Below are positions 1 through 8,697 of a stretch of DNA of 8,697 nt, piece after piece. Every line of letters starts with the position of its first letter. The first letter of the stretch is position 1. The stretch covers positions 1 through 8,697 of the forward strand of contig WAOU01000016.1 of the NCBI GenBank assembly GCA_015521095.1, given 5' to 3'. The notes below the pieces were generated by a model. It made no database searches. It worked only from the letters and a program-made list of their open reading frames with translations, and was not told the origin of the DNA. The DNA is from Desulfurococcales archaeon (GTDB lineage Archaea > Thermoproteota > Thermoprotei_A > Sulfolobales > Acidilobaceae). A program made the translations under genes and the position numbers.

Positions 1-911
1 CAAGACCGGTCCTAGCCTCCTACATAATCCTTTACCAGCTGGTAAATGACACTAGGCAGCTAGCAACAATCAAGTTTATTGACGAGGAGATACCCCCAGG
101 AGCAAATACAACACTCCCAATAGCATCTAATCTAACAAGTGGAAAATACGAGGTAAACATTGTAACCAGGCTCGGGAACGTTTTCGGCTGGGATCCCAGC
201 ATAGGAGGAGCATACAGTATTCCTCCAGAAGACGCTGTACTCCAAGACAATCCACTCTTGCTACTCTCGGATCTTATTGATCCCGGACTAGCCAAGGAGA
301 TACTTGAGAACTATACTGTTGTAGGGTATGACGCGGTTAAACCAGTGCTATATGATACAAGTATATTTGCACAAATAAGTGGAACAAGCAATTACAGGCC
401 AGTAACCTTGTCTATTAGGGTTAACGGAACGATAAACCACTACTATTACAAGCACGTAACCAATAGCAAGATAATCCATGAATATACAGGTACCGTTGAC
501 CTGACGGAGAACATGTCAGCACAGCTCTACGTTTACGGATACCTATGGGGCTATGGTCGTCCATATTACAGTACAGGTATCCGTCTACGAGTAGACTATA
601 CACTAATATACGAAGGGAGCAGGCCAATCCTCGTAACATTCAACCTGAACAAGTTAGACAATGTAATAGTACCGGTAGCCACAACATACAAGAATGTTAT
701 AGGCGAAGTATCGTTAGATAACGGAACACTGTTATCCTACTATGATAACCGCTATGTAGTCTTACTTTATGGTCCTGGGAGAATAACATTGGAATATATG
801 ACTTGGAGAACAACATCACCCACAAGCCCTAATGGAGGATCCTGGACCGCCCAGCTCGAAGGAATAGTATCCTATACTGGGTTAAACGTAGTCTACTTAG
901 ACGAGAAATAG
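1..911 (+). CDS. Secreted sequon-rich protein with pilin-like beta-sandwich region (5' end outside window)
   Basis: The reading frame is open from base 3 to the TAG at 909-911, giving 302 residues with no start codon in view, so the N terminus and any signal peptide lie to the left. The visible part is rich in Tyr, Thr, Asn and beta-branched residues, has no cysteine, and carries at least seven N-glycosylation sequons (NDT, NTT, NLT, NYT, NGT twice, NMS). This is typical of an archaeal cell-surface or pilus-associated protein. Near the start a stretch with 'PPGANTTL', 'LTSGKYEV' and 'IVTRLGN' resembles the C-terminal beta-sandwich of the pilin at 5242-5640 ('KPGQSI', 'LPSGDHVV', 'KIVFADG'). 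A pilin-like or adhesin role outside the membrane is therefore plausible, but no family is firmly recognised. Its last 15 bases overlap the end of the opposing membrane-platform gene. Confidence 0.75.
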   Translation, partial: RPVLASYIILYQLVNDTRQLATIKFIDEEIPPGANTTLPIASNLTSGKYEVNIVTRLGNVFGWDPSIGGAYSIPPEDAVLQDNPLLLLSDLIDPGLAKEILENYTVVGYDAVKPVLYDTSIFAQISGTSNYRPVTLSIRVNGTINHYYYKHVTNSKIIHEYTGTVDLTENMSAQLYVYGYLWGYGRPYYSTGIRLRVDYTLIYEGSRPILVTFNLNKLDNVIVPVATTYKNVIGEVSLDNGTLLSYYDNRYVVLLYGPGRITLEYMTWRTTSPTSPNGGSWTAQLEGIVSYTGLNVVYLDEK

Positions 912-2906
912 TGCGAGAAGAGCACTTGCAACACTTAGCAGGGCCAGGCGTACATTATCCCAGCGCCCATAATATATTCTGCCAGCTATAAGACCTATGC
1001 CTAGTGCTGCAATCCCTATACTTGTTTCTATCAGGTTCCAGGGCAGGACCGGTCCTGCCTGGAACTGTACTCCGGCTATCGGGGCAGTGTTAAAGCTGAG
1101 AATATGTGTTGCCCCGAGTTTTACACTGTATAGGAGTATGAGTGGTAGTATTGGTATAAGGGCTATAAGTATTCTTAGCCTGGCTCTCGCCTCTTTCTCT
1201 GCGTTTAGTACTGCTTGTATGTAGCGTTTAGCTTGTTCTATGTCGTATGCTGTTGCCCCTGTCTCGTACAATAGCCTAGCCAGCTTTAGTGTTTTGTCCA
1301 TTGCCTCGTGTATCGTCTCAGCCTGTAATATACCCCTAGACTTAAGGTTTCCGAGGAGCTCCAAGTAGAACTGTCTCAGCCTATAGTGTTTGACGGTAGA
1401 CGCCCGTTGTTCTAGTAGGCTGATTAATGGCATGCCGCTTCTAGCCGATTCTGCTAGTAGTCTTAGGAGCATGGGAGCCTCCTCTTTCTCTGCACGTGTA
1501 GCGTCAAGGACCGCATTATGCTTAATCATGTATGCTAGTAGTCCTATCAGTGCTGTTAGCGTGAAAGCTGGTCCGGGAGCTAGGCGTAGCACTAGGCTTA
1601 TAGCTACTCCTGTTATTGCTCCTGCAAGCAGCCATAGTAAGCCGTCTCCCGGCTCGATACTTGCTTTATCAGAGGGGAGCCTTGAGGCAAGGATCCCTGC
1701 ACCCACTATACCCAACGGTAAAAGTAGGCTAGTATACAGTCTGAGCAGCTCTAGGTTGCCCGCGAGGGAACCGGCAAGCAACGCTATAAGCGGTCCCAGC
1801 CCCAGCAGGATAAGTATAGCTTCGAGCAGTGTTAGGGCTTCCTCAGACATTCTCCTCATGCGCTGCTCGTGCTCCTCCAGCAAGCTAGTCTCGTAGTCTC
1901 TTAGCACGGGCTCCGGATCTCCTCCAGCAGTAATTATATCCTTGTAGTCTGTTGCTATCATCTGTATCTTCCGGCACGGATGCCTCTCTAATACTTGGAG
2001 CGGGTCTTTGCCTGAGTCTAGGTATCGGCCCGCTATTATTGTTTCCTTTGTAAGGCCCGCTATTGGAAATATTGTGTGTAGCATTAATCCAAGCCTGCTA
2101 GCCAGCCTTCCCGCGAGGACAAGCCATAATGCATTCTCTTTTCCTTCTTCCTTTCTATCCTCTCGCTTAATAAATATGAGAACAGGGACCGTCGCTAATC
2201 CTACTAGAGGCAGAAAGCCTACTATTAACACCTTGTATCCTATCCATGGATATAGTGCAATGATTAATCCTATACTCACAAGTGATGAGAGGAATAATAG
2301 TGAGCCTAGTAAAAGACCAAGCTCGCGTTCCGTGTACGGTAATAATGCTTCTTCTGCTATCCTATAGAGTCTCCTCGAGAGTGGAGCAAGCTTATCCGAG
2401 ATAAACAGCACGGGTGCTATTCCGCGTATCCTGAAATACGATAATCGATTATACCAGGGAATTTTATTCTCGAGTCTCCTTTTTCTAATCTCAACGCTTA
2501 GGGGACTAGTAACTAGGCCTTGAGCGGTCAGCCAAAAAGCTGTCTCCAGCGATAAAAGGCCTCCTAAGTAGATAACTGCGAACTTAAACGTATCAAGATC
2601 TAGTCTCACTATAACTAGGAGCTCCAGCGAGACCCCAATCATGTAGAATGGGATAGCTGCTACGAGTAGCTCCTTATATCTAGGCCGGCTAAAGTATAGT
2701 CTAGCTAATAGTCCTGTAACAGTGTCTAAGAGCAAAAGGCTTCCTATTACTGTGCCTAATATCGCCAGCGGACGAGGGTTCAGCTCTATTCGCCTGCTAG
2801 CCAGCTCGATTAACTGTGTTCCGGGACCTACATATAGGGCGTATAGGCTCAACCCCAGTATAACAGTAGAGAATGCTAGCTCTAGGATCCTAGCAGTATT
2901 TTTCAT
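897..2906 (-). CDS. TadC/GspF-like type IV pilus membrane platform protein
   Basis: This 669-residue protein has about a dozen hydrophobic helices. Approximate positions are 7-27, 47-70, 79-101, 108-130, 197-219, 224-246, 361-382, 386-407, 422-441, 446-462, 577-597, 626-645 and 653-669. Two charged, helical cytoplasmic blocks (about 250-360 and 463-576) interrupt them, the duplicated layout expected of the T2SSF/TadC superfamily. Such proteins form the inner-membrane platform on which the secretion ATPase works to assemble pilin subunits. The length matches the long archaeal form rather than the roughly 300-400 residues of bacterial TadC or GspF. Its ATG overlaps the TGA of the upstream ATPase gene (ATGA, 2903-2906), so the two are probably translationally coupled. 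The family call rests on architecture and gene order, not on a diagnostic motif. The TAA lies inside the end of the convergent secreted-protein gene. Confidence 0.85.
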   Translation of the reverse strand: MKNTARILELAFSTVILGLSLYALYVGPGTQLIELASRRIELNPRPLAILGTVIGSLLLLDTVTGLLARLYFSRPRYKELLVAAIPFYMIGVSLELLVIVRLDLDTFKFAVIYLGGLLSLETAFWLTAQGLVTSPLSVEIRKRRLENKIPWYNRLSYFRIRGIAPVLFISDKLAPLSRRLYRIAEEALLPYTERELGLLLGSLLFLSSLVSIGLIIALYPWIGYKVLIVGFLPLVGLATVPVLIFIKREDRKEEGKENALWLVLAGRLASRLGLMLHTIFPIAGLTKETIIAGRYLDSGKDPLQVLERHPCRKIQMIATDYKDIITAGGDPEPVLRDYETSLLEEHEQRMRRMSEEALTLLEAILILLGLGPLIALLAGSLAGNLELLRLYTSLLLPLGIVGAGILASRLPSDKASIEPGDGLLWLLAGAITGVAISLVLRLAPGPAFTLTALIGLLAYMIKHNAVLDATRAEKEEAPMLLRLLAESARSGMPLISLLEQRASTVKHYRLRQFYLELLGNLKSRGILQAETIHEAMDKTLKLARLLYETGATAYDIEQAKRYIQAVLNAEKEARARLRILIALIPILPLILLYSVKLGATHILSFNTAPIAGVQFQAGPVLPWNLIETSIGIAALGIGLIAGRIYYGRWDNVRLALLSVASALLALFLV
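1035..1065. repeat. Near-perfect palindrome inside the platform-protein gene
   Basis: GGCAGGACCGGTCCTGCC (1042-1059) is an exact 18-base palindrome. Outside it, GTTCCA (1035-1040) pairs with TGGAAC (1060-1065), with one unpaired G at 1041. It encodes ordinary residues (around 'QAGPVLPWN', near 616-624 of the platform protein), so it may be a chance product of coding. It could nevertheless form a hairpin in that mRNA near its 3' end. Confidence 0.7.
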
Positions 2907-4144
2907 ATAGCTATCACCTTTCTCGCCCTAGAGAGCCTCTCTTCTAGCACCCTACTTTTCTCCAGTATCCACTCGTCGCTGTCTGGATCCCATAGGGCTA
3001 GCCTCTCCCATTCGCCTGATCCACGGACGTATATCTCGAGGACTCTTCTCCCCTTCTGCGTTATGCCAGTTACTACTACCAGCCAGATTAAGTCCAAGTA
3101 ATAGTCTTCAATACCTAGTAGTCTCAGCCTCCGCTCTAGCTCGTCTATGCTGTGCGCGTGGAATGTCGCTGCACTAGCGCTCCCTAGTGCTGCTGCTTCA
3201 AAAATGTAGCGTACCTCTTCTCCCCTGGCCTCGCTTACCGCTATTACGTCCGCACGCATTCGTAGCGCGCTCCTCAGTAGCTCGCGGAAAGTTATCTTTG
3301 TCTTCTCGCTTGTAACGTCCAAACTATAGGCTTCTCTTGCCCGCAGACTTATCCAGTTTCCCCGCTGGAGCTTAAGTTCCGGGACCTCCTCTACCGCAAC
3401 TATTCTCATTGTTTCTGCTAGCTGTTCAAGGAGGGCTCCTAGTAGCGTTGTTTTCCCGGTTCCCTGGGCTCCTACTATTAGGATCATTCCCTTGCTCCTG
3501 AGTACTTCTACTAGTAGTGCTGCTAGTTCTCTTGGAAGCATGCGGGCTAATATTAGCCTGTCAAGTCCCCACTTGACACGGAGCTTCCTTATAGTAATAC
3601 TAGTCTTATCAGCTACACCCGAACCCCCTAGTACTGCAGAGATCCTATCCCCATGCAGGCTAAACTCACGTATCGGGAACAGCGGGCTAATACTTGTACC
3701 AGACCTTATAGCGAGGCGTTGTGCGAGCAATCTTGCATCGGACTCCTCTAGCATTATATTGGTCCTTATCCAGCCGATAACGGCCCTGTGGATAACCCTG
3801 ACGTAATCACCACCAACAATACTTATCTCTTCTATAGACTGATCCTGGATAAGTGGGTCGATAACTCCGTATCCAGCGTAGTCCCTTAACAGGTAATAGT
3901 CTATGGTGTGCTTCCAGCGCTCATATAACTCTGTCTTTCCTAATCGCTCTGCCGCGATCCACCTATCCTCCTCTCTGCCAGGATCGAGTTCCAGGTGTTT
4001 TGAGAAGTACTCGCGGAGCTCCAGATAGAGAATTGCAGCCTCCTCCGGTAAAGGTGGTTCAACTATGTTCAGTATCTTCTCCGTTCCAGTGTCGATTAGC
4101 TCTACCACTACTGGGCCTATTGTATAGCTCTCAAGTACCTTCAA
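2903..4144 (-). CDS. Type II/IV secretion system ATPase (GspE/TadA/VirB11 superfamily)
   Basis: A 413-residue cytoplasmic ATPase that would power pilus assembly with the platform protein encoded next to it. Visible motifs in order are: an N-terminal signature 'GYGVIDPL' followed by 'IEEISI' (about 91-108); Walker A GAQGTGKT at 225-232; an acidic Asp-box region 'VEEVPEL' at 251-257; Walker B 'DVIAVSEARGEE' at 299-310 with Glu305; and a His box 'FHAHS' at 328-332. All catalytic elements are present, so it should be active. The length is typical of archaeal pilus ATPases. The apparent start is TTG at 4144, 14 bases inside the upstream winged-helix gene; an in-frame GTG a few codons later is the alternative. 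The ATGA junction with the platform gene supports one transcript. The subfamily (archaeal adhesion pilus versus Tad-like) cannot be decided by eye. Confidence 0.93.
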   Translation of the reverse strand: MKVLESYTIGPVVVELIDTGTEKILNIVEPPLPEEAAILYLELREYFSKHLELDPGREEDRWIAAERLGKTELYERWKHTIDYYLLRDYAGYGVIDPLIQDQSIEEISIVGGDYVRVIHRAVIGWIRTNIMLEESDARLLAQRLAIRSGTSISPLFPIREFSLHGDRISAVLGGSGVADKTSITIRKLRVKWGLDRLILARMLPRELAALLVEVLRSKGMILIVGAQGTGKTTLLGALLEQLAETMRIVAVEEVPELKLQRGNWISLRAREAYSLDVTSEKTKITFRELLRSALRMRADVIAVSEARGEEVRYIFEAAALGSASAATFHAHSIDELERRLRLLGIEDYYLDLIWLVVVTGITQKGRRVLEIYVRGSGEWERLALWDPDSDEWILEKSRVLEERLSRARKVIAI

Positions 4145-4904
4145 GTCCCAGCCCCTTCCTTACAAGCCTGTATTCTTTCATGTTCTTTCCCTGCGTCGGC
4201 CTCCTGCTCTCTACTATTCCATGCTCCTCTAGTCTTTTCAGGAGGGCACTGGCTGTGCGTGGTGTTACTGCTAGGACGACTGCTGCTTCTCTTGCTGTAA
4301 ACCAATCAAGGTCGAAAAAGTCGTATAGTTTCTCTACTATTATTTTTGCATCGAACGTCACGCTTCCAACCTTTATATGTAGCCCTGTCATGCTAGCTCT
4401 CCATACTAGTGTGCTTTGCGGGGACGGTCCAGGCCATGTCTCGAGGACTCCTTTGCACGGTGGACCGCGCGTATAACCGTATGCCTCCCATATGATCAGG
4501 GGGTTGTTTTTGTGACGGCATATCTGGGCTCCTATACGTCCATAGAGGACTCTTTTGAACATGCTGCTGTGACCTAGTAGTATTAGTAGCTTGTTGAGGC
4601 TGTTGTGGAAGCTCTGTCGAGGAATCCGTAGCCAGTCAATGCTTTCGGTTACTCTCTTGTATATCTCGCTAGGTTTTGCGGATGATCCTTGCCAGCGGGC
4701 TGTGTAAAATAATATTGCCGCGGCCATGCTCCTCTCGTCGCATCCTCTTCCCTTGCATGATGGGATACTGTCTAGTATTTGTAGCGTCTTTTCTTCGAGC
4801 ACCCTGCGATCGATACCTAGTCTTGTATTGTTTATTAGTAGTCTTGTGAAGAGTAGTATTCCTCTTTTATGGCGTGTTAGCTTGGGAGATTCTTTGTATG
4901 GCAA
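4131..4904 (-). CDS. Winged helix-turn-helix protein, candidate regulator of the pilus locus
   Basis: The protein has 257 residues. The C-terminal part (about 200-248) reads as a winged helix: 'WFTAREAAVVLAVTPRTASA' is the helix-turn-helix, followed by 'LLKRLEEHGIVESR' and a wing ending 'KEYRLV'. This resembles MarR/ArsR-type DNA-binding domains. The first 190 residues are helical and basic, with a C-x4-C pair at Cys50 and Cys55 and further cysteines at 129 and 150; I do not recognise a family. The frame begins at TTG 4904, preceded by a GGGGAT that may serve as ribosome-binding site; GTG codon 35 is a less likely alternative. It is the first gene of the leftward operon and overlaps the ATPase start by 14 bases. 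Facing the palindrome at 4958-4994, it could control itself and the divergent pilin genes. That role is inference. Confidence 0.8.
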   Translation of the reverse strand: MPYKESPKLTRHKRGILLFTRLLINNTRLGIDRRVLEEKTLQILDSIPSCKGRGCDERSMAAAILFYTARWQGSSAKPSEIYKRVTESIDWLRIPRQSFHNSLNKLLILLGHSSMFKRVLYGRIGAQICRHKNNPLIIWEAYGYTRGPPCKGVLETWPGPSPQSTLVWRASMTGLHIKVGSVTFDAKIIVEKLYDFFDLDWFTAREAAVVLAVTPRTASALLKRLEEHGIVESRRPTQGKNMKEYRLVRKGLGLEGT

Positions 4905-4941
4905 ATGAAATCCCCAATTTATGCTCGTTGAGTGTCCCAGA

Positions 4942-4957
4942 GCTCATAAGCGTGAGC
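4942..4957. repeat. Short hairpin abutting the long palindrome
   Basis: GCTCA (4942-4946) and TGAGC (4953-4957) are perfect inverted arms around a 6-base loop. The hairpin ends exactly where the 37-base palindrome begins, so the two form a tandem pair. Confidence 0.5.
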
Positions 4958-4994
4958 CAACTCCCCACTTTACACGGTGTAAAGTGGGGAGTTG
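4958..4994. repeat. 37-base perfect palindrome between divergent genes
   Basis: The left arm CAACTCCCCACTTTACAC (4958-4975) and the right arm GTGTAAAGTGGGGAGTTG (4977-4994) are exact reverse complements around a single G at 4976. It lies 54 bases upstream of the winged-helix start and 247 bases upstream of the pilin start. TGGGGAGT from the arm recurs at 5043-5050. A dyad this long and exact between divergent genes, one encoding a DNA-binding protein, fits an operator. A transposon-end hairpin or cruciform is the alternative. Confidence 0.9.
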
Positions 4995-5004
4995 ACAGTC
5001 TGCG

Positions 5005-5024
5005 CCCAACAACCATGCCTTGGG
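5005..5024. repeat. Short hairpin in the intergenic region
   Basis: CCCAA (5005-5009) pairs with TTGGG (5020-5024) across a 10-base loop. Taken alone it could be chance; it is listed because it lies among several other inverted repeats. Confidence 0.3.
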
Positions 5025-5079
5025 ATCACGAAGTATGAACGTTGGGGAGTAAAACTTAAAAACCCCTCGTCCTGCGGGC

Positions 5080-5089
5080 GATATTTAAA
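5080..5089 (+). promoter_or_regulatory. TATA-like box, candidate promoter of the rightward pilin genes
   Basis: GATATTTAAA resembles an archaeal TATA box. The expected start of transcription, about 25 bases downstream, would fall near 5110, giving a leader of about 130 bases before the pilin ATG at 5242. Alternatives are ACTTAAAAA at 5054-5062 and GATATATGC at 5160-5168; the latter would give a leader of roughly 50 bases. No choice among them can be made from sequence alone. Confidence 0.4.
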
Positions 5090-5103
5090 CCCCTCAGAAG
5101 GGG
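5090..5103. repeat. C/G hairpin just after the TATA-like box
   Basis: CCCCT (5090-5094) and AGGGG (5099-5103) pair around a CAGA loop. The left arm belongs to an AAACCCCTC that is repeated at 5060-5068. The hairpin sits at the presumed initiation region, so it may mark a protein-binding site or a structured 5' end. Confidence 0.5.
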
Positions 5104-5204
5104 ACAGTCAAACCAACTGAGTTCCGAGACATGGCAAGAATCCTAGCTCCAAGACAAGCCGATATATGCTTCTCATACCTCTATGACGTAGAACACTACG
5201 ATGA

Positions 5205-5232
5205 CGTCCCCCAATGCGCCATATCTAGTGAG
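5205..5232 (+). repeat. 28-base leader repeat, copy 1 (before pilin gene)
   Basis: This copy begins CGTCCCCCAA and ends CTAGTGAG. It matches 5934-5961 at 26 of 28 positions, the differences being T/C at position 11 and T/A at position 20. It ends 9 bases before the ATG at 5242, and its GTGAG could pair with the 16S anti-Shine-Dalgarno sequence. This copy lies in apparently non-coding sequence. Confidence 0.85.
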
Positions 5233-5241
5233 CGTGAGAGT

Positions 5242-5640
5242 ATGCGCAGGCTATCGGCAAGACGTGGTATAAGCTACATAGCTAGCGTAATCATACTCTT
5301 AGCAATAGTAGCAATAGGAGGCGCAGCCGTATACAACTATCTAAATAATACCGCCTCAGCACTAGCCAAACAAGTAGAAGTAACAGCATCGGCAATAACA
5401 ACAACAAACACAACATACGTGCAGATACAACTACACAATACAGGCACACAAAGCGTAACCATAACCAGCGTATACATAGACAACACAGACATAACAACAA
5501 CCATAGGACTAGCAAACTACACGCTAAAACCAGGACAAAGCATAAGCAAAGTAATCAGCCTAAACCTGCCAAGCGGAGACCACGTTGTAAAAATAGTATT
5601 CGCCGACGGCAGCGAGAAACCGGCAAAGTTCACTAGCTAA
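5242..5640 (+). CDS. Type IV pilin-like protein with class III signal peptide
   Basis: A 132-residue secreted subunit. The N terminus 'MRRLSARRG' followed by 'ISYIASVIILLAIVAIG' is a textbook archaeal prepilin signal: a short basic region, a predicted prepilin-peptidase cut after Gly9, then one hydrophobic helix (about 10-30) that would form the filament core. The remainder (about 45-132) is Thr- and Val-rich beta-sandwich with sequons at Asn35, Asn56 and Asn92 and no cysteine. The frame stays open back to 5131, but the extra 37 residues would bury the signal peptide, so ATG 5242 is chosen. The coding strand is strikingly poor in T from about 5360 to 5560. It is the first rightward gene and faces the operon for a pilus ATPase and platform, its likely assembly machine. 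Whether it is a major or minor pilin is unknown. Confidence 0.85.
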   Translation: MRRLSARRGISYIASVIILLAIVAIGGAAVYNYLNNTASALAKQVEVTASAITTTNTTYVQIQLHNTGTQSVTITSVYIDNTDITTTIGLANYTLKPGQSISKVISLNLPSGDHVVKIVFADGSEKPAKFTS

Positions 5641-5664
5641 CCTGTTTTCCCTTTCCCTAGTGGG

Positions 5665-5671
5665 GGAGGAG
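5665..5671 (+). promoter_or_regulatory. Ribosome-binding site deciding the start of the second pilin-like gene
   Basis: GGAGGAG lies immediately before GTG 5675. The alternative in-frame GTG at 5660 is preceded only by pyrimidine-rich sequence, and this site would then lie inside the gene, so 5675 is preferred. Confidence 0.5.
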
Positions 5672-5674
5672 AAC

Positions 5675-5953
5675 GTGAACAACATAGTTGCGGCAATTCT
5701 TCTAATTAGTATAACAGTAGCGGGAGCCACGGCACTATACCACTACCGAGATGTTCTCCAAACAGACAACAAACCCCTAAGCCTAGAAAGGATAGGTCCC
5801 TACAATGCCACCTACGACCTGGTATATGTAAATAGTGGTTGCCTAAGCGATGTCCTAGCATACAACAAGACTATAGGTAATTTCACCCGAGTACAACAGG
5901 CATGTGCTGGAAGCCTAGTTCTCCTCCCCCACGCGTCCCCCAACGCGCCATAA
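5675..5953 (+). CDS. Small pilin-like membrane-anchored secreted protein
   Basis: A 92-residue protein read from GTG 5675 (97 residues if GTG 5660 is used). A hydrophobic helix, 'IVAAILLISITVAGATALY', lies almost at the N terminus. A short beta-rich ectodomain follows, with sequons at Asn44, Asn64 and Asn69 and two cysteines (Cys56 and Cys77) that could form a disulfide. This is the plan of archaeal type IV pilin-like proteins, but the basic residue plus Gly/Ala of a standard prepilin-peptidase site is missing. It may be an atypical minor pilin or a simple membrane-anchored protein. It starts 35 bases after the first pilin gene and ends 16 bases before the VirB2-like gene, so all three are probably cotranscribed. 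Its last codons lie inside copy 2 of the 28-base repeat. No named family is recognised. Confidence 0.65.
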   Translation: MNNIVAAILLISITVAGATALYHYRDVLQTDNKPLSLERIGPYNATYDLVYVNSGCLSDVLAYNKTIGNFTRVQQACAGSLVLLPHASPNAP

Positions 5954-5969: not shown

Positions 5970-6290
5970 ATGGTGAATACACGTATAATTCTATCGGCCA
6001 CGATCCTCCTATTACTAGTAATAATGGGATCTATCCATGTGAATGCTCAGACTACGACAACACTACCAATAACAGCGGAGCCGGAGGCACCGGAACCAGT
6101 ACAGAACCTGGCTAGCAAGGCCCTGGGCCTTGCAATGTATGTCCTTATAGTCGTAGGCTTACTAGCCCTCCTAGTGGGAGGAGCAAAATTTGCTATGGGA
6201 GCCCCCGATGCTGGCAAGTGGATAATAAGAGGAGCAATAGCACTAGTTATAGGGATAGGCTTCTGGGCCATTGTAACATGGCTACTATAA
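5970..6290 (+). CDS. VirB2/TrbC-like conjugative-type pilin (CedA1/TedC-like role)
   Basis: A 106-residue protein with the complete VirB2/TrbC layout. A Sec-type signal peptide occupies 1-26 and ends 'HVNA' before Gln27. A Thr/Pro/Glu-rich linker (27-47) follows, then a first membrane helix (about 51-72), a short polar turn 'GAPDAGKWIIRG' (77-88) and a second helix (about 86-106) that ends the protein. In bacteria such subunits polymerise with lipid into conjugation pili. The pilins of the archaeal Ced and Ted DNA-import systems are established homologues. The ATG has a GAGGTG ribosome-binding site 5 bases upstream. A VirB3-like gene follows after 13 bases and a VirB4-like ATPase lies further down, which strongly supports the call. 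Assignment to Ced, Ted or a new branch needs comparison with known members. Confidence 0.8.
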   Translation: MVNTRIILSATILLLLVIMGSIHVNAQTTTTLPITAEPEAPEPVQNLASKALGLAMYVLIVVGLLALLVGGAKFAMGAPDAGKWIIRGAIALVIGIGFWAIVTWLL

Positions 6291-6303
6291 GAGGCCAACA
6301 ATA

Positions 6304-6888
6304 ATGCCTCGTAGATTATACAGGGTAAACTCGGCCCCGGATTTTTCCGGGTTTGAAGAACCAATACTCCTAGCAGGCACAACTCCCCTAAGCTTAAAGA
6401 ATATAATAGCGATAGGAGTAGGCCTAGCAATAATAGGCATGGGTCTACTATGGAAGACACCTGTACTAGTGAGAGAGCCATTCCCACTAAGCCTAGGACT
6501 ATTACTAGGACTAGCAGGAGGACTCTCAATAATAATGTGGAGCACCATGATCAGACCAGACCAGAGCAGCCTACCTATATTAAAACTAATAGTGACAAGA
6601 CCCACGCAGCCAAAGGAGCGGAAGAGACGCATTGAACCAATAACCATAAGAGCAGATGAAGAAACAGGAATAGCGAGAATAGAGCTCGAAGGATACGCGT
6701 ACGATCCGGCAAGTGGAAAACCGCTTGATAGGGTTGACGTTGTAATCGATGGAAAAGTACACGGCGTAGACACGGTTAATGGAAAATACTATCTAGAAGT
6801 AGAGCTCTCGAGGGGCATACACAGGATAGTAGTCAGGCTATCCAAGTCCCAGATTATACTCAGAGAGTTCGATCTTAGGATAATCTAA
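6304..6888 (+). CDS. VirB3/PrgI-like membrane protein with C-terminal beta-sandwich domain
   Basis: The protein has 194 residues. The N-terminal part looks like VirB3/PrgI: a short basic start, the motif 'FEEPILLAGTTPLSLKN' (17-33), then two hydrophobic helices (about 31-50 and 61-81) joined by a short loop. A basic linker (about 92-112, 'PKERKRR') leads to a domain of about 75 residues (120-194). Its pattern 'LEGYAYDPASGKPLDRVDV', then 'VNGKYYLEV' and 'HRIVVRLS', is that of carboxypeptidase-regulatory-like or Ig-like beta-sandwiches. VirB3 helps anchor the VirB4 ATPase at the membrane, but bacterial VirB3 has no such domain and is usually about 90-110 residues. Two helices would leave the C terminus on the same side as the N terminus. 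The position between VirB2-like and VirB4-like genes supports the VirB3 reading; by sequence alone it is tentative. Confidence 0.65.
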   Translation: MPRRLYRVNSAPDFSGFEEPILLAGTTPLSLKNIIAIGVGLAIIGMGLLWKTPVLVREPFPLSLGLLLGLAGGLSIIMWSTMIRPDQSSLPILKLIVTRPTQPKERKRRIEPITIRADEETGIARIELEGYAYDPASGKPLDRVDVVIDGKVHGVDTVNGKYYLEVELSRGIHRIVVRLSKSQIILREFDLRII

Positions 6889-6890
6889 CG

Positions 6891-6908
6891 TTTTTGAGGG
6901 GTTCTTTA
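6891..6908 (+). terminator. Candidate T-rich terminator after the VirB3-like gene
   Basis: A run of five T (6891-6895) starts two bases after the stop codon, followed by GAGGGG and a second T-rich patch (TTCTTT, 6902-6907). Archaeal termination commonly uses such T tracts without a hairpin. A promoter follows at once, so a transcript boundary here is likely. Confidence 0.45.
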
Positions 6909-6920
6909 TCAGAGTTAAGT

Positions 6921-6938
6921 TAATTATTAATATAAAAA
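6921..6938 (+). promoter_or_regulatory. Promoter of the 75-residue protein and VirB4-like gene
   Basis: An A/T-only stretch ending in TATAAAAA (6931-6938) is the best TATA box in the window. Transcription would start about 25 bases downstream, near 6960, giving a short leader with a GAGGTGA ribosome-binding site (6971-6977) before ATG 6984. Confidence 0.65.
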
Positions 6939-6983
6939 CTTTAGATTACAAAAAATCACAACGAGGCTCAGAGGTGAAACAAC

Positions 6984-7211
6984 ATGGTCGAATACATAAG
7001 AAAAATAGTCGGAATCATACTAATAGCTCTAGGAGCAATACCCGGCTCAATAGTGATCCAATCCATACCTGCTCTACTAGAAAACATATACAACCCGTTC
7101 TACACAATAATCCTAGGCATCATAATCCTCGTAGTCGACTCCATCCTAGCCATAGGCTCAATGTCACTAATCACAATAGGAGCCAGTATGTTAAAAGATA
7201 CCACTTGGTGA
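6984..7211 (+). CDS. Small two-helix membrane protein between VirB3-like and VirB4-like genes
   Basis: A 75-residue, strongly hydrophobic protein with helices at about 7-27 and 39-68 (the second interrupted by Asp52) and a short tail 'LKDTTW'. It has no signal-peptide cleavage site and no cysteine. The gene has its own TATA box and a GAGGTGA ribosome-binding site six bases before the ATG. The leader and first codons (GAGGTG, AAAC, ATGGT, GAATACA) echo those of the VirB2-like gene. The Ced system includes small two-helix membrane proteins (CedA1, CedA2) beside its channel protein CedA, so this could be an accessory subunit of that type or a second VirB2-like pilin. I cannot assign it to a family. 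The VirB4-like gene begins 41 bases later. Confidence 0.7.
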   Translation: MVEYIRKIVGIILIALGAIPGSIVIQSIPALLENIYNPFYTIILGIIILVVDSILAIGSMSLITIGASMLKDTTW

Positions 7212-7225
7212 ACCCTGTCCCCGGC

Positions 7226-7240
7226 TTTTTCCTATTTTAT
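7226..7240 (+). promoter_or_regulatory. T-rich tract before the VirB4-like gene
   Basis: TTTTTCCTATTTTAT fills the short gap ahead of the VirB4-like gene. It may act as a partial terminator that lowers ATPase expression relative to the small protein, or it may contain a weak TATA element. It directly precedes the GGAG ribosome-binding site at 7242-7245. Confidence 0.3.
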
Positions 7241-7252
7241 TGGAGATAAAAG

Positions 7253-8697
7253 ATGGCCTGGTGCCGAATCGATTCTGGACCATACTGGGACATGCCAGAG
7301 CCTGAAAGGGACAGGTTTATCTCAGCGTTTGCACGATGGCTCTCCGGCCTTAAAAATAAGGCCTGGATACATGTTGTTGTAGAAGAAGACGCTATCAAAT
7401 GGGAGGATCTAGACACAACTTACAGGGTCCCCAGATTCTATATCGAGGCGAGAGACGAGGATGATCCAGGACTAGCAGGTTTATCCGCAGAGAGAATACT
7501 CACAGTGGAGAGGCCTCGGCCCATTAAATCCGTTAAAGGAGGATTCCTATTGTTAGAGGGAGGCTATTTCGCCAGAAGCTATGCTATAACAGGTCTACCC
7601 CCACAGCTACCTGAAGCTGCATTTGCCGAATACGACGTGGTAGACGAGCTACATATACAAGTAGAACCATACAATGCCCTGAACAGACTACGCGCGAAAC
7701 ATAGTAGGCTCCAGAACTATGCAGTAGGAGGATTCGCCCCGATATGGAGCAGTATAGGACTACTCCTCCAAGAGGCCATGAGCGGATATAGACTCCTAAG
7801 ACTCAGAATACTCCTAATAGTAAAGGCTAGGAGCCTGGAAGGAGCTAAGAACCGAGCTAGACAACTCGAGGCACTTCTAACCTCGCTGGGCGTAGGCTAT
7901 AGTAGTCCTTATATAGGAAGGGTTCAACAAGCATTATACAATCTGCTACCATTAGATAATTGGAAGGGAATAATAGTCTCAAATGGGGCTGCACCCGTAC
8001 TATACCCATTCATAAGCGAGGAACTTGCACACCCAGGAGGAATATTCCTAGGCTTCAACCTCCGGACAGGAAGCCCGATAATCTACAACCCGTACCGGAT
8101 GCCCAACTACAACCTCGTAATAATAGGAGAAACAGGCTCAGGCAAAAGCATGACAGGCAAACTATACATAAGGAGATGGCACAAGCGTCATCAAGCACCA
8201 ATATACATTATCGATCCAAGCGGAGAATACGCCCGAGTAGCAGGCTCTCTAGCACCACGTCTAAAAGCCTACAGGATCAGGCAAGAAGAAGGAGGACTAG
8301 ACCCGGTCCGGCTCTACCGCACAGGACAATTATCATACAGCATCATACTAGACATCCTGTCTGACGTCTATAAACTAAGCAGAGAAGAAAGACTAAGCCT
8401 CCTAGACCATATAGAACGAGCTAAGAACATGGAAGACCTCCTAAACATTGTTAAAGAAGCACGCGTAGACAGAGGCCTATTCAATGGTCCTCTAGTAGAA
8501 CCAGACGAGCACGGAGCAATATTCGATCTAAGCGAGCTACGCACCAAAAGAGAGAAGATCCTCGCCGGTAGCATAATAGCCGCAATACTAGCAAAGAGAC
8601 TAAGAGGCAAGTCACTCCTAGTAGTAGACGAGGGCTGGATGTGGGCCGAATACCCAGCACTCATGTCCCTACTAGCAGAGACTAGCAGAGTAGGCAG
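7253..8697 (+). CDS. VirB4/HerA-family ATPase of a conjugation-like DNA-transfer system (CedB-like; 3' end outside window)
   Basis: The frame runs from ATG 7253 to the window edge, 481 complete codons without a stop. ATG 7253 is the start because an in-frame TAA lies two codons before it and GGAG sits seven bases upstream. The first 280 residues match a VirB4-type N-terminal domain only loosely ('PYNALNRLRAKHSRLQNYAV' at roughly 140-160). The motor domain is unmistakable: Walker A GETGSGKS at 292-299, 'IIDPSGEY' with Asp321, Walker B 'LLVVDEGWMW' with Asp459-Glu460, and 'ETSRVG' at the edge. VirB4 proteins energise pilus assembly and DNA transfer from the cytoplasmic side. CedB is the counterpart in crenarchaeal DNA import. 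The last part of the motor, perhaps 100 or more residues, is missing. Neighbouring VirB2-like and VirB3-like genes favour VirB4 over the repair helicase HerA. Confidence 0.9.
   Translation, partial: MAWCRIDSGPYWDMPEPERDRFISAFARWLSGLKNKAWIHVVVEEDAIKWEDLDTTYRVPRFYIEARDEDDPGLAGLSAERILTVERPRPIKSVKGGFLLLEGGYFARSYAITGLPPQLPEAAFAEYDVVDELHIQVEPYNALNRLRAKHSRLQNYAVGGFAPIWSSIGLLLQEAMSGYRLLRLRILLIVKARSLEGAKNRARQLEALLTSLGVGYSSPYIGRVQQALYNLLPLDNWKGIIVSNGAAPVLYPFISEELAHPGGIFLGFNLRTGSPIIYNPYRMPNYNLVIIGETGSGKSMTGKLYIRRWHKRHQAPIYIIDPSGEYARVAGSLAPRLKAYRIRQEEGGLDPVRLYRTGQLSYSIILDILSDVYKLSREERLSLLDHIERAKNMEDLLNIVKEARVDRGLFNGPLVEPDEHGAIFDLSELRTKREKILAGSIIAAILAKRLRGKSLLVVDEGWMWAEYPALMSLLAETSRVG

Follow-up and report, generated by a model that had tools for sequence, protein, structure and literature searches.

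A type IV pilus module beside VirB2-, VirB3- and VirB4-like genes in a Desulfurococcales archaeon: probably part of a conjugative element

The question raised by the locus

What kind of DNA-transfer system is encoded on an 8,697-nucleotide stretch of a Desulfurococcales archaeon (assembly GCA_015521095.1, contig WAOU01000016.1; hereafter the window), where VirB2-, VirB3- and VirB4-like genes stand side by side? An earlier note on this DNA described them as a conjugation-type module in the order of bacterial operons and inferred a relative of the Ced/Ted importers or a new branch; the type IV secretion system (T4SS) module with its crenarchaeal relatives, its order, the side on which the ATPase falls and the expectation of a VirB6-like gene stand, whereas the Ced kinship is not supported. 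The window consists of ten genes or open reading frames (ORFs) in one arrangement over 8.7 kb, the last four being those of the note, and its left half (897-5953), which the note overlooked, is by its sequence a type IV pilus (T4P) module within the same conserved neighbourhood as the T4SS. The window is probably part of a conjugative, likely integrative, element of a crenarchaeon from the Desulfurococcales/Acidilobales sphere that carries its own T4P, and we infer mobility for the copy in the window too.

The VirB4 ATPase and its relatives

The last gene (7253-8695, plus strand; 481 residues, open at the window end) contains all three motifs named in the note, GETGSGKS, IIDPSGEY and DEGW, and resembles VirB4/HerA-type ATPases in Pfam and NCBIfam, where only some of the matches of the window genes pass the curated cut-offs. 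Its full-length form on the 20,735-b contig is a protein of 565 residues (P0017) that begins with MPEPERD, that is, at 7292. In a quick VirB4 tree of 59 rows, which provides the ATPase phylogeny that the note had proposed as a check, the window falls on the VirB4 side (41 rows, approximate likelihood ratio (SH-aLRT) support 97), apart from a separate side of CedB and CedB-like rows (12 rows, SH-aLRT 97). The VirB4 side includes the plasmids pT33-3 and pNOB8 as well as one Lysinibacillus plasmid row, which is the sole bacterial row, has a long branch and is of unsure position. Ten rows with support 99 form the window's own clade, made up of Pyrodictium genes and genes from metagenome-assembled genomes (MAGs), and the pT33-3 VirB4 adjoins it (SH-aLRT 87). 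One locus (L063) was excluded from the tree and another (L121) yielded no CedB ORF; the rows labelled HerAlike are relatives of type IV coupling proteins (T4CP) according to the later T4CP search, the tree contains no true HerA, and the reading of the weaker VirB4-like neighbours as HerA was rejected on that same search.

Moreover, the VirB4 orthologue of a close relative (L002, described next) finds VirB4 as its best match in the PDB (2.6e-18), ahead of a DNA helicase (1.9e-4) and a HerA-domain helicase (0.0013). Against the NCBIfam CedB cut-off of 700 bits, the window fragment scores 26.9 bits and the L002 protein 29.2 bits; and the VirB6-like family of these loci, compared by hhalign with five CedA candidates that were picked by position and number of transmembrane (TM) stretches and not by name, gives an E value of 0.79, no better than reversed. 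Membership in the Ced system was rejected on these three grounds, namely tree, cut-off and CedA comparison, and the window ATPase, judged by sequence, belongs with the VirB4 of conjugative elements and not with CedB.

A scan of species genomes revealed two relative loci, L001 in a Desulfurococcales MAG and L002 in an Acidilobaceae MAG, whose VirB4 identities in the best segment are 54 and 53 percent. VirB2, VirB3 and VirB4 are adjacent in both, as they are in L005/L055, L037, L038, L039 and plasmid pT33-3. The order in L002 is T4P ATPase, platform, three pilin-like genes, VirB2, VirB3, VirB4, ORFs of 112, 80 and 444 residues, and then a polytopic VirB6-like protein of 689 residues. The note had stated that no VirB6/CedA-like channel lies in the window, which agrees with the lack of a VirB6 family match among its ten ORFs, and had predicted one to the right of VirB4, which is what L002 and other relatives show. 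Beyond the VirB6-like gene, the opposite strand of L002 carries two small genes, 15939-16520, whose product has relatives in several loci, and 16532-16981, whose product is weakly AbrB/MazE-like. The same MAG (G001) holds a second, different T4SS copy, L055, with VirB2, VirB3, VirB4, VirB6 and T4CP genes; each copy has an integrase-like gene, of which that of L055 passes the PF16795 cut-off and that of L002 falls below.

Across the class, VirB4 matches at 1e-20 or better occur in 33 of 229 genomes, at 36 places. In an alignment at E 1.4e-28, five VirB6-like proteins from the window's clade match eight others (five from a second VirB4 clade, three from Sulfolobales elements), and the family of the window's clade aligns with a pT33-3 protein at E 1.9e-14; no alignment is detectable with the VirB6-like protein of Lysinibacillus (E 0.65). 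Relatives of the L055 coupling protein are present in 26 of 29 genomes, and 22 of 32 VirB4 places have a match to the T4CP family no more than 26 kb away, this limit having been picked after the places were seen.

Islands bounded by tRNA genes

Pyrodictium abyssi (G174) and a related genome (G182) have a syntenic block of about 32 kb in common, with no syntenic run beyond it in the 100 kb compared; at one end of the block lies a tRNA gene, and at the other a part of this tRNA is repeated exactly. Twelve regions were tested for such repeats with tRNA genes called by ARAGORN without intron search, so that intron-bearing tRNA genes may be missed. The cluster is enclosed by an exact repeat of 74 bp of tRNA-Thr in P. 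abyssi (span 35.5 kb), 52 bp of tRNA-Asn in G182 (35.4 kb), 48 bp of tRNA-Val in G175 (38.8 kb) and 56 bp of tRNA-Ser in Pyrolobus fumarii (G183; 36.7 kb). Both the T4P and the T4SS modules lie within the bounds in all four genomes, and at the repeat of each stands an archaeal integrase above the PF16795 cut-off. Integrase, att-like tRNA repeats, VirB4 and T4CP, by which an integrative and conjugative element (ICE) is recognized, thus occur together in these four relatives, in Pyrolobus with a T4CP-like protein only. An integrated Sulfolobales element in G208 likewise has a tRNA repeat, of 34 bp, spanning 29.4 kb. As for the other regions, G103, G113 and G167 have tRNA genes and no enclosing repeat, no tRNA gene was found in the tested regions of G070, G071 and G226, and a stretch of 22 bp common to two tRNA genes in G112 was taken for chance, as was a 21-bp match of another tRNA in Pyrolobus. 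A family of small proteins is represented three times in tandem at the tRNA end of the G182 island (L188, 886366-887831) and once each in G174 and G175.

Islands that are flanked by tRNA, and that hold an integrase and a coupling-protein relative, fit a conjugative element better than a pure importer. Instead, the locus could encode a domesticated chromosomal system of DNA exchange that serves DNA repair, either Ted-like or resembling Ced/Ups in function, with the T4P aggregating cells and the T4SS importing DNA. Such a pairing has a precedent, since Ups aggregation and Ced import are an established pair in Sulfolobales according to passages of PMC11868833 and PMC9905601, and the second VirB4 clade also links VirB4, T4P and T4CP without a convincing bounding repeat. 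However, the window ATPase is not CedB, and the window's VirB4 clade includes three Pyrodictium-side genes that sit in tRNA-bounded islands with an integrase; because of these island boundaries the conjugative element is favoured, and a domesticated system seems rather unlikely, though it is the strongest of the competing explanations.

The type IV pilus module and its linkage to VirB4

The T4P module comprises a membrane platform of UpsF/TadC type (897-2906, minus strand; 669 residues), which matches Pfam T2SSF at 1e-6 (29.2 bits, cut-off 25.2) and NCBIfam UpsF at 4e-9 (35.8 bits, under the cut-off of 400); an assembly ATPase of UpsE/TadA type (2903-4144, minus strand; 413 residues; Pfam T2SSE 3e-27); and two pilins on the plus strand. 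The first of these (5131-5640) is UpsA-like, with an NCBIfam match of 1e-12 and 48.4 bits, under the cut-off of 130, and its real start, judged by eye, probably lies further inside the ORF, before MRRLSARRG; the second (5660-5953) is pilin-like by the archaellin/pilin N-terminal domain (0.0025; 17.3 bits, cut-off 20).

VirB11 and T4P ATPases form one superfamily, and the GspE-type ATPase at 2903-4144 matches both VirB11 (TIGR02788, 1.4e-26) and the TadA type (TIGR03819, 4.7e-43), in each case under the cut-off, so it might be asked if it is the T4SS's own VirB11 instead of a T4P motor. This is improbable, for a T2SSF/UpsF platform and pilins adjoin it, the platform family recurs in six loci (the window counted), and the ATPase groups beside those of Ups and bindosome. 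In a first tree of 65 T4P ATPases, nine from loci of the window type and the Pyrolobus type cluster together beside five Sulfolobales ATPases, eight from the second VirB4 clade join eight near CedB-family genes, and 40 other sampled ones stay outside both groups; the sample took 40 of about 90 other T4P matches and eight of the 12 near CedB, and counted L180 (G039) as near although its contig has no VirB4. Among the Sulfolobales ATPases, L140 exceeds the NCBIfam bindosome ATPase cut-off and a bindosome BasC gene stands beside L144; L142, L146 and L149 were taken for Ups because an UpsF match follows L149. With the four longest branches omitted, a more careful tree supports the group of nine at 90/70, the nine with Ups and bindosome at 91/90, and the other group of 16 at 100/100. 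With such values the sister relation is only moderate, and the assignment of the window's ATPase to a VirB4-linked group that is sister to Ups plus bindosome should be regarded as moderately supported.

Of the 36 VirB4 places in the 33 genomes, 15 have a T4P ATPase (matches taken at 1e-10) no more than 15 kb away, where 1.9 would be expected, with places on contigs too short for a neighbour scored as misses; the corresponding P of 1.3e-10 assumes independent places, and it is too small because the genomes are related. Within the second clade, the VirB2-like gene adjoins the T4P genes in five of the eight loci with a T4P ATPase (L043, L057, L181, L182, L183). Though T4P loci are common in these genomes (one to five ATPase matches each) and the close relative L055 shows no T4P in view, an adjacency of two unrelated modules by chance is highly improbable given this excess and the enclosure of both modules in the same bounded islands of four genomes.

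Several observations weigh against a mobile element whose T4P and T4SS work together. No tRNA gene was found in the 8.7-kb window, and the family scans of its ten ORFs gave no integrase or VirD4 match any more than a VirB6 match. The 19.9 kb read for the L055 copy contain no T4P, and six second-clade regions with a T4P nearby (G070, G071, G103, G112, G113, G167) have no convincing enclosing tRNA repeat; since that clade too has T4P and T4CP near VirB4, neither linkage proves mobility. The Pyrolobus VirB4 belongs to a different clade (four members, support 99) from the window's, and the Pyrolobus coupling-like protein has no T4CP-specific Pfam match. Besides, when 20 loci drawn from 80 genomes were inspected around CedB-family genes, a T4P ATPase was near in 12 of the 18 loci with a sub-cut-off CedB match and in neither of the two above it, so that T4P linkage is not peculiar to VirB4. 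As to the small proteins, hhalign probabilities to the bacterial VirB2 and VirB3 families are only 1 to 4 percent (the local ones and the VirB2 global one) or 0.2 (VirB3 global), and Foldseek with the VirB2 and VirB3 models returned nothing at E 0.001 or better and is uninformative, the rows shown being mostly helical hairpins or bundles for one model and generic beta sandwiches for the other.

The 12 sub-cut-off CedB loci with a T4P ATPase (L121, L122, L124, L127-L135) usually contain a pilin as well, and a polytopic protein and a protein of about 700-800 residues.

The VirB2-like and VirB3-like proteins

The VirB2/TedC-like conjugative pilin candidate (5970-6290, plus strand; 106 residues) has the signal peptide and two-helix hairpin by which such pilins are recognized, as the note had claimed: the signal peptide, read by eye, ends at VNA before QTT, two further hydrophobic helices follow, and an AlphaFold model agrees with helices at 2-24, 42-76 and 81-105 (mean pLDDT 79). 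A hydrophobic N-terminus is found in the VirB2-like proteins of the window's clade. Among curated pilin families only PF18895 appeared, at E 3.6, the PDB gave no pilin match, and no solved archaeal pilin was recovered by sequence or fold search. By hhalign, the alignment with VirB2 of Bacillota plasmids has E values of 0.02 (local) and 0.0045 (global), without a shuffle control. The hidden Markov model (HMM) of the VirB2-like family also matches VirB6-like proteins in nine loci (1e-3 to 3e-9, at positions within the protein not located), in agreement with the resemblance of CedA1 and CedA in a passage of PMC9905601.

The VirB3/PrgI-like protein (6304-6888, plus strand; 194 residues) also proved as described, with two TM stretches; in its AlphaFold model a helix pair (31-51/64-82) is followed by a C-terminal beta sandwich (113-193), with a mean pLDDT of 74. 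It is a small two-TM protein beside virB4, as VirB3 and PrgI are, though a 75-residue ORF may intervene, and it exceeds the 10-15 kDa that a passage of PMC12857230 states for VirB3/PrgI. Twenty VirB3-like proteins have been aligned, and the two-TM N-terminal part is common to them. The C-terminus gives CarboxypepD_reg matches in five of ten scanned relatives, all under the cut-off, and is replaced by extra TM stretches in L055, L048, L050 and L061. An HMM of the N-terminal part finds VirB4 neighbours that were not used in training, in L054 (5e-14), L041 (1e-7), L040 (4e-7) and pNOB8 (8e-7), together with five weaker matches elsewhere (2e-4 to 7e-3). The pNOB8 match is a protein of 312 residues adjoining VirB4 that is annotated as hypothetical (L113:8142-9080).

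The likeness to bacterial PrgI is faint. The Pfam PrgI cut-off of 27 bits was missed in all 18 rows scanned, and the window's own protein gave no match; PrgI is listed for four rows (L050 and P0006, which are the same protein, P0009 and L068), at best with 16.7 bits and E 0.011, and TcpE for one (L068, 0.011). The comparison of the VirB3-like family with the PrgI profile yields a weak local score of 18.7 (E 0.011, probability 3.9 percent), which none of 150 shuffles preserving the hydropathy layout matched (maximum 17.7), whereas the global score was matched by eight of 150; a further profile comparison gave E 0.038. A search with PF12666 in ten genomes gave 15 weak matches in seven of them, two of which lie on VirB3-like genes of G209, and it also matched 11 of 14 control genomes. 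The best PrgI-family match of that search (0.004; G209:C1:2735529-2735720, L083) lies in an open frame of 312 residues about 2 kb from a T4CP match, perhaps a VirB3 of pNOB8 type. Sequence searches against solved structures with VirB2 and VirB3 returned designed or unrelated proteins, Ig-like or adhesin domains, or nothing.

In bacteria, the order on the Lysinibacillus plasmid is VirB2-like, PrgI, one gene, VirB4 and a gene annotated as a type IV secretion system protein, and of six further Bacillota plasmids, four have a gene annotated TrbC/VirB2 upstream of PrgI and two a gene annotated hypothetical there. In the Ced-type operons L123, L125 and L126 a two-TM protein of 60-64 residues stands immediately upstream of CedB, in the place that VirB3 takes relative to VirB4; CedA2 might be a counterpart of VirB3.

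Other features of the window

At the left edge of the window, the plus-strand ORF at 3-911 (open; C-terminal 302 residues) encodes a secreted or pilin-like protein that matched no Pfam family, and by position only it may be compared with a protein of 349 residues (L002:7525-8574) in the third pilin slot of L002. A winged-helix protein of 257 residues (4131-4904, minus strand) matches MarR_2 at 6.5e-5, under the cut-off, and belongs to a blastp family present in six loci, the window counted. The small membrane protein that the note placed between VirB3 and VirB4 exists as a hydrophobic ORF of 75 residues (6984-7211, plus strand) with two TM stretches by eye, and its status as a gene is uncertain: the ORFs listed for L002 and L001 include no plus-strand one of at least 60 residues in the interval from VirB3 to VirB4, where L002 has only one of 58 residues without a TM stretch, so the window's ORF looks not conserved. 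The viral_contigs scan gave no match.

Comparison with known systems

The nearest known conjugative plasmid, pT33-3 of Thermococcus nautili 33-3 (NZ_OX281346, a record matched by strain name and size), has VirB2-like, VirB3-like and VirB4 genes in the window's order, with a VirB6-like protein encoded close by on the opposite strand, and differs in that the 29.7 kb examined gave no T4P ATPase HMM match and only a marginal UpsF match on an ORF of 53 residues. According to a section of the review PMC12857230, this plasmid conjugates, and transfer is lost when its virB4- and virD4-like genes are mutated. The Sulfolobus conjugative plasmids of pNOB8 type and their integrated relatives also combine VirB4 with VirB2-, VirB3- and VirB6-like genes; however, a T4P ATPase lies within 15 kb at none of their six VirB4 places, the VirB3-like proteins of L048, L050 and L061 have three TM stretches, and those of L048 and L050 have no beta-sandwich Pfam match.

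As for the importers, passages of PMC9905601 give TedC a signal peptidase I site and describe TedA and TedB as VirB6- and VirB4-like; the window features fit this description of the Thermoproteales Ted system, a likeness by description only, and the loci guessed to be Ted-like make up a VirB4 clade of their own, with 15 members. Ced and Ups of Sulfolobales present the same pairing of T4P with a T4SS-like system, and differ in that the window reaches neither the CedB nor the Ups cut-offs and has no CedA match, and that both modules here share one locus. Ups genes are said, in part of PMC11868833, to be absent from other Crenarchaea. A conjugative plasmid with its own T4P is known in bacteria, where IncI plasmid R64 encodes a T4P required for liquid mating (passage of PMC12102498), again likened by description only.

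The sections covered of PMC12857230 credit archaeal conjugative plasmids with only VirB4 and VirD4 homologues, plus one membrane protein in Sulfolobus, and report no relaxase identified on them, and VirB3 is said to be absent in archaea in part of PMC11868833. In the portions covered of PMC9905601, PMC11868833, PMC12857230, PMC4158269, PMC4858521, PMC12102498, PMC3158045, PMC6668835 and PMC12713403, and in other titles and abstract openings, no archaeal T4P genes are described together with VirB2-VirB3-VirB4.

A proposed mechanism and its meaning

For a conjugative element of this kind, we infer cell contact by the T4P, the direction and form of the DNA and each molecular step as follows. Two machines would act one after the other, the T4P first and then a minimal T4SS. 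The Ups-like T4P, with its ATPase, platform and pilins, would bring cells together and hold or stabilise the contact, like Ups pili. The VirB2-like pilin would be cleaved by signal peptidase I; the VirB3-like protein would tether the VirB4 motor to the membrane; and VirB4, powering pilus assembly and transfer, would act with VirB3 and VirB6 to form the VirB2 pilus and the channel. The VirB6-like channel and a VirD4-like coupling ATPase, which may feed the DNA, would be encoded outside the window, and excision and insertion of the element would fall to the integrase.

More tentatively, such loci might be an archaeal ICE family with a full set of mating genes (T4P plus VirB2-VirB3-VirB4-VirB6-VirD4), and it is conceivable, if doubtful, that such elements gave rise to the Sulfolobales Ups/Ced pair as well as to the chromosomal T4P-linked VirB4 loci, pilus and pump having been domesticated jointly and not recruited separately. 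Altogether, these loci point to a fuller archaeal conjugation kit with a dedicated T4P tied in, as one unit that looks mobile, and suggest how such elements may join cells before DNA passes. They supply a gene list that is testable in pT33-3, where transfer is measurable, and they offer an evolutionary route to the split Ups/Ced system.

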